NCBI GenBank assembly: GCA_903876765.1
Contig: CAIRBH010000003.1
Location: forward strand, 20,921 to 84,920
Source of the DNA: an uncultured Pseudomonadota bacterium
GTDB lineage: Bacteria > Pseudomonadota > Gammaproteobacteria > Burkholderiales > Methylophilaceae
Direction of reading: 5' to 3'
DNA: 64,000 bases
A model generated the notes under the pieces. That model was given only the letters and a program-made list of their open reading frames with translations, made no database searches and was not told the origin of the DNA. The position numbers and the translations under genes are program-made. Every line of letters begins with the position of its first letter. The first letter of the stretch is position 1. Positions 6,646 to 59,670 of the stretch are shown piece by piece.

Positions 6646-7380
6646 ATGTCTAACTTTAGATTTTATAGCGCTGAAAATTTACACCTAGGCGCTACCGTCA
6701 AGTTATCTGACAACGCCGCCAGCCATGCCACGCGAGCCTTACGTTTAAACTTGGGGGATACGCTACATCTGTTTAATGGCGATGGTGTGGACTATGCGGG
6801 CGAGCTCATCAGCGTTAAAAAGAACGAGGTGTTAGTCAAGCTCAGCACTAGCCAAGTGATAGAAAATGAATCCCCACTTAATATTACATTGCTACAAGGC
6901 ATTTCTAGTGGCGATCGCATGGATTACACCATACAAAAAGCCGTAGAGCTGGGCGTGGCGGTTATTCAGCCTATCGCTACCGAGCGCAGTGTAGTCAAAC
7001 TGACGGCAGAACGCGCGCAAAAACGCTTAGAACATTGGCAAAATGTGGCGATTTCGGCCTGCGAACAATGCGGACGTGCGACTGTGCCAGCATTGTTAGC
7101 GCCAGTGAGTTTATCAGTATGGCTAGCGTCTAATCAGCAAAATAACGCTATGCGCGTATTGCTCAACCCGCTGGGCGCAAAGCGCCTGTCAGCATTGTCC
7201 GCTGCGCCGCAACACATACAATTGCTCATAGGCGCAGAGGGCGGTTTAACGAGCGCAGAAATCGCTTTGGCCATCCATCACGGCTTTCAATCGGTGATTT
7301 TAGGGCCACGTATTTTACGCACCGAAACCGCCGCCCTAACTGCTATTTCTGCCATGCAAACGCTTTGGGGTGACTTCTAA
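6646..7380 (+). CDS. rsmE: 16S rRNA (uracil1498-N3)-methyltransferase
   Basis: LLQGISSGDRMDYTIQKAVELGV..., LLIGAEGGLTSAEI, ILGPRILRTETAALTAI. Confidence 0.96.
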   Translation: MSNFRFYSAENLHLGATVKLSDNAASHATRALRLNLGDTLHLFNGDGVDYAGELISVKKNEVLVKLSTSQVIENESPLNITLLQGISSGDRMDYTIQKAVELGVAVIQPIATERSVVKLTAERAQKRLEHWQNVAISACEQCGRATVPALLAPVSLSVWLASNQQNNAMRVLLNPLGAKRLSALSAAPQHIQLLIGAEGGLTSAEIALAIHHGFQSVILGPRILRTETAALTAISAMQTLWGDF

Positions 7381-7382
7381 GA

Positions 7383-7442
7383 CAAATATATTTGCTTATA
7401 TTACAAATATATTTTATTATTTTGTAAATTATACAAAATAAT
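7383..7442. promoter_or_regulatory. Cluster of palindromes and direct repeats upstream of the HTH-argA fusion (candidate operator)
   Basis: Palindrome CAAATATATTTG (7383-7394); near-identical ACAAATATATTTG/T at 7382 and 7403 (21 bp apart); inverted repeat ATTATTTTGTA-AATTA-TACAAAATAAT (7416-7442); ATG at 7448. Confidence 0.6.
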
Positions 7443-7447
7443 ACCCG

Positions 7448-9040
7448 ATGTCACTCGCACATTCTCTTCGTCAGCGGCGCAAGTCGCTAAAAATGACACT
7501 GCAAACACTGGCCACGCAAGTGGGCGCAGATGCTGGCAATTTATCGCGCATTGAACGTGGCGAATTAGGCATTAGTGAAACACTGTTGCGTAAAGTAGCG
7601 GCGGCGCTAGATTGCAGCCCAGCCTATTTGTACGCACAAAGTGAGCTTAACCCAGCCCATTTGAGTGCAGCAGCGCATGGCTCTGCCCCCGCCTTAACAT
7701 ACATACAGCCCAATAATGCCAAAGATTTTGTGCAATGGTTTCGCTCTGCTACGCCTTATATTCACGCATTTGGTGGGCGCACCTTTGTCATTGCTTTTGG
7801 CGGGGAGGTGGTGGATGAAAAACAATTTGTTGCACTATCACACGACTTAAACCTGCTGGCCAGCCTAGAAGTGCGCCTAGTATTGGTACACGGCGCACGC
7901 CCGCAAATTGAGCAGCGCTTAAAGCGCGATAAATTAAATGCTAAATATGTCCTCGGCCTGCGCGTGACTGATGATGCAGCAATGGAAGCCGTTAAAGAGG
8001 CGAATGGCGCAATTCGGGTAGAAATAGAAGCGTTACTTTCTATGGGGCTGGTCAACTCGCCGATGGCGGGCGCAGATATTCGGGTGGCCAGTGGCAATTT
8101 TGTCACAGCAAAACCCATGGGCGTGCGCGAAGGGGTTGATTTGCAGCATACTGGCGAAGTACGCAGAATAGATGCCGTCGCCATACAAAAGCGCTTAAAT
8201 GAAGGTGAATTAGTCTTGTTATCGCCGCTGGGCTATTCGCCAACGGGCGAAGCCTTTAACTTAAGTTTAGAAGATGTGGCGGTGAGCGCGGCCATTGCAC
8301 TAGATGCAGATAAATTGATTTTCTTGATGGATTCTGCTGGCGTGCATAATTTACGCGGTGAGCTACTGCGTGAAATGACCGCAGAAAAGGCCAAAAACTT
8401 GCTGCGCAATGTCAGTGAAAACGAGCAAGCAATCAATGTGTCAGAAGACGTGAATTACTATCTACCAGCTGCGGTCCGCGCTTGTGAGCAGGGCGTTGCA
8501 AGGACGCATCTTATTTCGCGCCATATTGATGGTGCAATTATACAAGAGCTGTTTACCGTTGAAGGCATAGGCACTATGGTCACAGAGCTAAGCTTAGAAA
8601 GCATGCGGCAAGCCCATATTGACGATGTTGGCGGTATTTTAAAACTGATAGAGCCACTAGAATTAGAAGGCTTTTTAGTTAGGCGTGGGCGAGAGCGCAT
8701 AGAAATGGAAATTAATCATTTTTATGTGATGGAACATGGCAACCGCGTGATTGGCTGCGCGGCACTTTATCCGTTTGTTGCTGAGCGTACCGCTGAATTT
8801 GCCTGCCTAGCCATAGACCCCGCCTACCGTGGCGCAGGGCGTGGTGATAAATTATTTTATTACTGTGCCAATCAAGCCAAAACACTAGGCTTTAAAAGCT
8901 TATTTTGCCTGACCACCCGCACCGAACACTGGTTTTTAGAGCGTGGTTTTATCGAACAAAATGTAGAAAAACTGCCCGCTGAAAAACAACAACTTTATAA
9001 CTATCAGCGTAAATCTAAAGTTTTTAGCAAAACCTTATAA
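7448..9040 (+). CDS. argA: N-acetylglutamate synthase (amino acid kinase + GNAT domains) with N-terminal XRE-type HTH domain
   Basis: Residues 1-70 SLRQRRKSLKMTLQTLATQVGADAGNLSRIERGELGISETLLRKVAAALDCSPAYL are HTH_3-like; then ArgA-like FVIAFGGEVVDE...LVLVHGARPQIEQRL and GNAT motif CLAIDPAYRGAGRGDKLFYY. Confidence 0.93.
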   Translation: MSLAHSLRQRRKSLKMTLQTLATQVGADAGNLSRIERGELGISETLLRKVAAALDCSPAYLYAQSELNPAHLSAAAHGSAPALTYIQPNNAKDFVQWFRSATPYIHAFGGRTFVIAFGGEVVDEKQFVALSHDLNLLASLEVRLVLVHGARPQIEQRLKRDKLNAKYVLGLRVTDDAAMEAVKEANGAIRVEIEALLSMGLVNSPMAGADIRVASGNFVTAKPMGVREGVDLQHTGEVRRIDAVAIQKRLNEGELVLLSPLGYSPTGEAFNLSLEDVAVSAAIALDADKLIFLMDSAGVHNLRGELLREMTAEKAKNLLRNVSENEQAINVSEDVNYYLPAAVRACEQGVARTHLISRHIDGAIIQELFTVEGIGTMVTELSLESMRQAHIDDVGGILKLIEPLELEGFLVRRGRERIEMEINHFYVMEHGNRVIGCAALYPFVAERTAEFACLAIDPAYRGAGRGDKLFYYCANQAKTLGFKSLFCLTTRTEHWFLERGFIEQNVEKLPAEKQQLYNYQRKSKVFSKTL

Positions 9041-9061: not shown

Positions 9062-9985
<924 letters not shown>

Positions 9986-59599: not shown

Positions 59600-59670
59600 A
59601 ACTGCACCGCTCAAACGCATTCAGTTAAGCCTATTATGCATTTTTTGCAAAAAATGTTAATGCAGTTTTA
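59597..59670. terminator. Nested inverted repeats between convergent lplT and ndh (candidate bidirectional terminator)
   Basis: Outer arms TAAAACTGCA/TGCAGTTTTA; inner palindrome CATTTTTTGCAAAAAATG (59639-59656). Confidence 0.6.

Follow-up and report, generated by a model that had tools for sequence, protein, structure and literature searches.

Metabolic enzymes that also have DNA-binding activity are known as trigger enzymes; PutA, BirA and NadR of E. coli are of this kind, and PutA, acting from sites in the putA-putP spacer, is a repressor of its own gene (PMC8249747). In the present work we analysed a stretch of DNA of 64,000 nucleotides (hereafter the window) from an uncultured bacterium of the Methylophilaceae. 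Its argA gene encodes an N-acetylglutamate synthase (NAGS) with an N-terminal XRE helix-turn-helix (HTH). Like PutA, BirA and NadR, the product is a metabolic enzyme with a DNA-binding domain and is predicted to act at its own promoter or at that of its pathway; it differs from them in that the enzyme is an NAGS with an XRE domain, that one clear target is seen, namely its own promoter, and that the binding is predicted. The predicted operators in front of argA are conserved, have a fixed geometry on a conserved promoter, are linked to the HTH-bearing argA and are nearly unique in the genome.

The closest solved homologues of the ArgA HTH are the lambdoid Cro and CI repressors (434 Cro, P22 c2), and the closest solved chain is phage 434 Cro. 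In lambdoid phages, several operators overlapping one promoter give autoregulation, and the 434 operators run ACAA...TTGT. In contrast, the argA half-sites run TTGT...ACAA (17-bp dyads with TTGYA half-sites), and since this orientation is inverse, the contacts of 434 are not transferable to ArgA. Unlike the lambdoid repressors, moreover, the ArgA HTH is fused to an enzyme and there is no divergent promoter switch. The arginine repressors ArgR/AhrC serve the same purpose, repressing arginine synthesis by way of AT-rich dyads in tandem, whereas at argA the protein family, the dyad and the spacing are different and a pathway-wide regulon was not found. In a regulon survey of 2016, ArgR was reported to be conserved in the gammaproteobacteria and missing from other classes (PMC5343134).

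The argA gene (positions 7448-9040, + strand) encodes a product of 530 aa, of which residues 89-530 score 685.6 bits against NCBIfam NF003641 (cut-off 344) and 572 bits against TIGR01890 (cut-off 203). At these equivalog scores the product is a classical NAGS with the AAK and GNAT architecture, and its catalysis is predicted. The kinase-like and GNAT parts are shared with the classical ArgA of Neisseria gonorrhoeae and align end to end with that NAGS (PDB 2r8v, E 4.8e-84); compared with ArgA proteins that have no HTH, the XRE domain and a linker of residues 68-97 are additions. The preliminary description had called the neighbour gene an HTH-bearing enzyme gene, and this was borne out: residues 7-61 (7466-7630, + strand) match Pfam HTH_3 with 36.7 bits against a cut-off of 23, which places the domain in the XRE (Cro/CI) family. 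In a structure model built with 26 family members, residues 1-65 form a five-helix domain (pLDDT 83-92; helices 3-13, 18-25, 29-36, 44-53 and 58-65), of which residues 29-36 are the recognition helix, and the flexible, disordered linker joins this domain to the enzyme. The remainder of the model is of modest confidence, with a mean pLDDT of 65.5. The recognition-helix region, residues 31-38 (NLSRIERG), is invariant in the 26 family members. A DNA-binding domain is thus fused to an enzyme of predicted catalysis, which is the architecture of a trigger enzyme.

After a gap of 60 bp, argA is followed on the same strand by argB, encoding acetylglutamate kinase (9101-9985), and the gene order in relatives makes this a probable co-transcribed second gene: in 28 of 30 relatives argB lies 3' of argA in the same orientation, for the most part no more than about 100 bp away. 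On the other side, rsmE was found upstream of argA in only 47 of 68 cases. Because argB follows so regularly and rsmE precedes so much less often, operators in the rsmE-argA gap belong with argA and not with rsmE.

The gap extends from the end of rsmE at 7380 to the argA ATG at 7448 (7381-7447; 67 bp, 84% AT). The repeats that had been claimed to fill it are all present. The palindrome CAAATATATTTG lies at 7383-7394, and a second copy, CAAATATATTTT, occurs 21 bp downstream at 7404-7415 with 11 of 12 bases matching. The perfect inverted repeat described before the ATG is also there (7415-7443, loop of 5), with arms of 12 nt (7415-7426 and 7432-7443) instead of 11 and an end 4 nt instead of 5 nt before the ATG. 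The reported absence of a clear Shine-Dalgarno holds as well, no core being visible in the last 16 nt of the gap. When the gap was shuffled with dinucleotides preserved, a 12-nt perfect inverted repeat arose in 32 and a 12-nt direct repeat in 45 of 5000 shuffles. Each type of repeat is thus uncommon (0.6-0.9% of shuffles), though not extreme, for such AT-rich DNA, and therefore the window sequence alone could not decide. The same frequencies would suit a reading in which the repeats are chance products of an AT-rich promoter and any conservation reflects only the -35 and -10 elements and common descent.

The upstream DNA of 68 orthologues gave a different conserved unit from the one proposed. 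CAAATATATTTG was found in 1 of the 68 upstreams, that of the window itself, even with one mismatch allowed, and the 12-nt perfect arm of the inverted repeat is likewise unique to the window; the palindrome is real but not conserved, and its direct repeat was rejected as an operator. Nor is the 21-bp (two-turn) spacing conserved. Conservation is instead seen in two 17-bp dyads spaced 30 bp, with the consensus WTTGYAWWWWWTRCAAW. In the window the first dyad, the predicted operator O1, is TTTGCTTATATTACAAA at 7391-7407 (matrix score 16.5), and the second, the predicted operator O2, is TTTGTAAATTATACAAA at 7421-7437 (18.7), the best-scoring site within the 64-kb window. O2 is contained in the inverted repeat, which is conserved only in these inner 17 bp. 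The dyad pair scores above the 99th percentile of shuffles in 65 of the 68 Methylophilaceae argA upstreams; L062 and L048 have upstream scores inside the shuffle range. The starts of O1 and O2 are 30 bp apart in 54 genes, including that of the window, and 29 bp apart in 11.

Circularity was avoided by training the scoring matrix on other genera only and then applying it to the own genus. With this matrix the pair was recovered at the same positions in 47 of 47 own-genus upstreams, and when the window upstream was shuffled 1000 times, the score of the window was never attained. In the reverse training, on the own genus only, the pair was found in 19 of 21 genes of other genera. High scores were also obtained in genomes outside the matrix set (e.g. 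L212, L215, L224, L228, L232, L245, L257 and L268). The information content reaches 2 bits in the sites and is about 0-0.3 bits in columns well outside them. In comparison, all 22 argA genes examined from the same order that have no HTH were without the pair; these controls are more GC-rich, which in itself lowers the scores.

These data bear directly on the chance reading. It can account for the left TTG of O1, which doubles as the -35 element, but the right halves of both dyads and all of O2 are not promoter parts and are nevertheless among the most conserved columns, as is the left TG of O2 in particular, while the flanks are unconserved across genera. Chance is already contradicted by the footprint against shuffles and by the cross-genus matrix tests, and we consider it extremely improbable. 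Footprinting thus upheld the idea of an operator in the gap, the pair being conserved at the fusions, absent from HTH-less argA and usually unique per genome, while the motif and spacing originally named for it were not sustained. Since the dyads lie over the promoter of their own gene and are conserved with the putative regulator, they are predicted to be an autoregulatory operator.

The position of the dyads on the promoter is fixed. With the first base of O1 as 0, the family promoter has a TTG(C/T) hexamer at 1-6 and a TATAAT-like hexamer at 24-29, separated by a 17-bp spacer, and the -10 bases T, A and final T are each present in 49 of 52 distinct upstreams. In the window, the -35 element TTGCTT (7392-7397, + strand), whose TTG is conserved in the family, is inside O1, and the -10 element TATTAT (7415-7420, + strand), supported by family conservation, lies directly before O2. 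A consensus promoter scanner missed this promoter because the -35 element matches in just three bases. From the promoter geometry, transcription is expected to start inside O2 at 7427 (+ strand), about 7 nt after the -10 element. The last element of the gap had been placed where a ribosome-binding site should be; no Shine-Dalgarno is there, and there is more to it than that, as O2 spans the predicted transcription start. With O1 over the -35 element and O2 over the start, the dyads therefore occupy the classical position for a repressor.

The repeats might instead act as RNA, as an argA leader hairpin serving as attenuator, rsmE terminator or start-site occlusion. The gap does fold into two hairpins (-18.7 kcal/mol, z -3.3), and the absence of a visible Shine-Dalgarno in the window would fit such a role. 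However, because O1 is upstream of the predicted start and O2 lies across it, the stems would be untranscribed from the argA promoter. The symmetry across orthologues points the same way: the TG/CA positions match in 90-100% and the core pairs in only 33-61%, and since only TG/CA is strongly symmetric, the pattern is what a protein dimer would give, unlike an RNA stem. The first hairpin was seen in the window alone, rsmE is not constantly upstream, and no terminator-like site was found at the argA gap, so that nothing there qualifies as an intrinsic terminator or attenuator. The position of the promoter and the absence of conserved pairing led us to reject an RNA hairpin or terminator, which we hold to be very unlikely.

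The HTH-argA fusion is present in practically all members examined of the family, which by named records is Methylophilaceae (Methylotenera, Methylophilus, Methylobacillus, Methylovorus and others). Even in the most divergent member, L070, the HTH precedes ArgA, although the search alignment began at residue 90. With the argA products of other families in the order, the alignment to ArgA does not begin before about residue 60-95. When 369 genomes were sampled across the class, among the approximately 155 matches listed none outside the family starts within the HTH core.

Genome-wide occurrence was assessed by pattern searches. The 47-bp pair pattern, with one mismatch allowed, was found in 71 of 150 family genomes, as a rule with a single occurrence per genome and most often at argA; its reversed control was found in 1 genome. 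The own genome has 20 strict single sites, two of them at argA, and the others inspected are mostly intragenic. A separate regulator (a stand-alone XRE protein, a CRP/FNR-like protein or another arginine regulator) might nevertheless own the dyads, the ArgA HTH doing something else, as TTGYN7RCAA dyads resemble the sites of several regulator families and operators by themselves do not name their binder. Such a regulator would normally have more conserved promoter sites, its own included, which does not agree with the mostly intragenic single sites seen elsewhere; further, the pair goes with the HTH-bearing form of argA and is usually the sole such pair per genome, and ArgR was not found in 121 related genomes. 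On this evidence we consider a separate regulator unlikely.

As for the classical arginine repressor, the argA dyads resemble ARG boxes, which are likewise AT-rich dyads in tandem, about 18 bp long and marked by TG/CA close to the ends. Paired ARG boxes are, however, usually 2-3 bp apart, and the gap between the two dyads is 13 bp. ArgR (PF01316) scored over the cut-off in none of 121 related genomes, while 8 of 14 control genomes were over it. We rejected binding by ArgR/AhrC because ArgR was not found in the 121 genomes, and its probability is in our view negligible. Sites at other arginine genes, suggested earlier as a place to scan, also speak against ARG boxes: none of the other arg genes was found to have an operator pair, and the starts of argC, argJ, carA and argG are without a site. 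Therefore no regulon is available for testing specificity, and a regulon across the arg genes was rejected, argD having one weak site only.

This single site, CTTGCATAAGTTACAAA on the gene strand (score 9.7, with a G in its core), precedes argD, the first gene of an argD-argF-argG cluster, and lies 48 nt before the ATG (L122 3703-3719; G000 C14). It is located directly before a terminator-like hairpin, and argD is a possible second target. At pyrB, a site of score 9.7 occurs about 120 nt before its match. A single operator-like site (L112 849-865 / L127) lies about 62 nt before an arginase/agmatinase-family gene and is shared by no genomes beyond the three closest. An agmatinase-like gene (G000 C34) was rejected as a target, its site being kept in the three closest genomes only. 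Within the window, the operator-like sequence TATGCATTTTTTGCAAA (59635-59651, score 17.9) lies between convergent genes without promoter context. A second recurring pair, in genus g19 and a few others, is apparently conserved coding sequence, NVNITNIRPDFALITK.

Half-sites of the argA operators are of two types, TTGT and TTGC, according to whether base 4 is T or C. Of the loci whose protein has Leu40, 48 of 49 have 0-1 C-type half-sites, and 16 of 17 with Gln40 have 2-4. When the tree is built from the enzyme part only, this correlation amounts to about two independent changes, and a test by independent pairs does not reach significance. The joint change of residue 40 and half-site is consistent with co-adaptation, and because there are just about two changes on the tree it falls short of proof; a statistical proof of coevolution between operator and recognition residue was given up for the same small number of independent changes. 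Methylophilus has kept the HTH with Ser30 and mostly Ile40, and the right half-sites of both its operators are degraded, a point against binding by ArgA; loci of this type are natural candidates for altered or lost autoregulation. The combination of Ser30, Ile/Val40 and degraded right half-sites was seen in L233, L234, L237, L238, L241-L243 and L250, which are mostly Methylophilus.

We infer that ArgA itself is the binder, that its binding represses and that argB is co-regulated. Judged from the sequences, it is probable that HTH-ArgA binds at O1 and O2 and thereby represses its own promoter, argB being a probable passenger. An XRE-domain dimer at the N-terminus of ArgA would bind each dyad. 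As the half-sites of each dyad are about one helical turn apart and the dyads, at 30 bp, about three turns apart, one ArgA oligomer could hold both. The bound protein would cover the -35 element, flank the -10 element and cover the start, and RNA polymerase would thereby be excluded. Transcription of argA, probably together with argB, would be repressed in this way, and the promoter would be free when ArgA is scarce.

How arginine enters is more speculative. Arginine is the allosteric ligand of this enzyme family and has been reported to reshape the hexamer of the Neisseria gonorrhoeae homologue (review PMC10464499). For this reason, and because ArgR was not found in the 121 genomes, arginine is the likeliest candidate for a co-repressor, which would strengthen repression by changing the oligomer. 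An extended form of this idea, to which we give somewhat less than an even chance, is that in Methylophilaceae, apparently without ArgR, ArgA, which as the first enzyme of the arginine pathway is subject to feedback inhibition, has itself become the arginine-sensing repressor; a single arginine-binding event would inhibit catalysis and lock the XRE domains onto O1 and O2, shutting off argA-argB and perhaps argD-argF-argG. A complete argJ is present alongside argA in G000 (C6:33290-34468; L270), and ArgA may therefore serve an anaplerotic role in the recycling pathway.

The principle of an enzyme acting as autorepressor is already known, and its HTH-ArgA member appears to be undescribed: no report of the fusion was found in the open literature searched, outside which most subscription journals lie. 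If the proposed autoregulation is true, an allosterically inhibited amino-acid biosynthetic enzyme joins the short list of trigger enzymes, and the control of entry into arginine synthesis has a likely answer in a family without detectable ArgR. The predicted 47-bp operator is precise and can be cheaply tested in cultured, harmless methylotrophs, e.g. Methylotenera mobilis, and the diverged operators and recognition helices of the family, among them the decayed Methylophilus sites, form a natural series. Elsewhere in the window, at 342-1027 on the - strand, there are two adjoining small genes which by eye resemble a PIN-domain toxin (139 aa) and a Phd/YefM-type antitoxin (86 aa).
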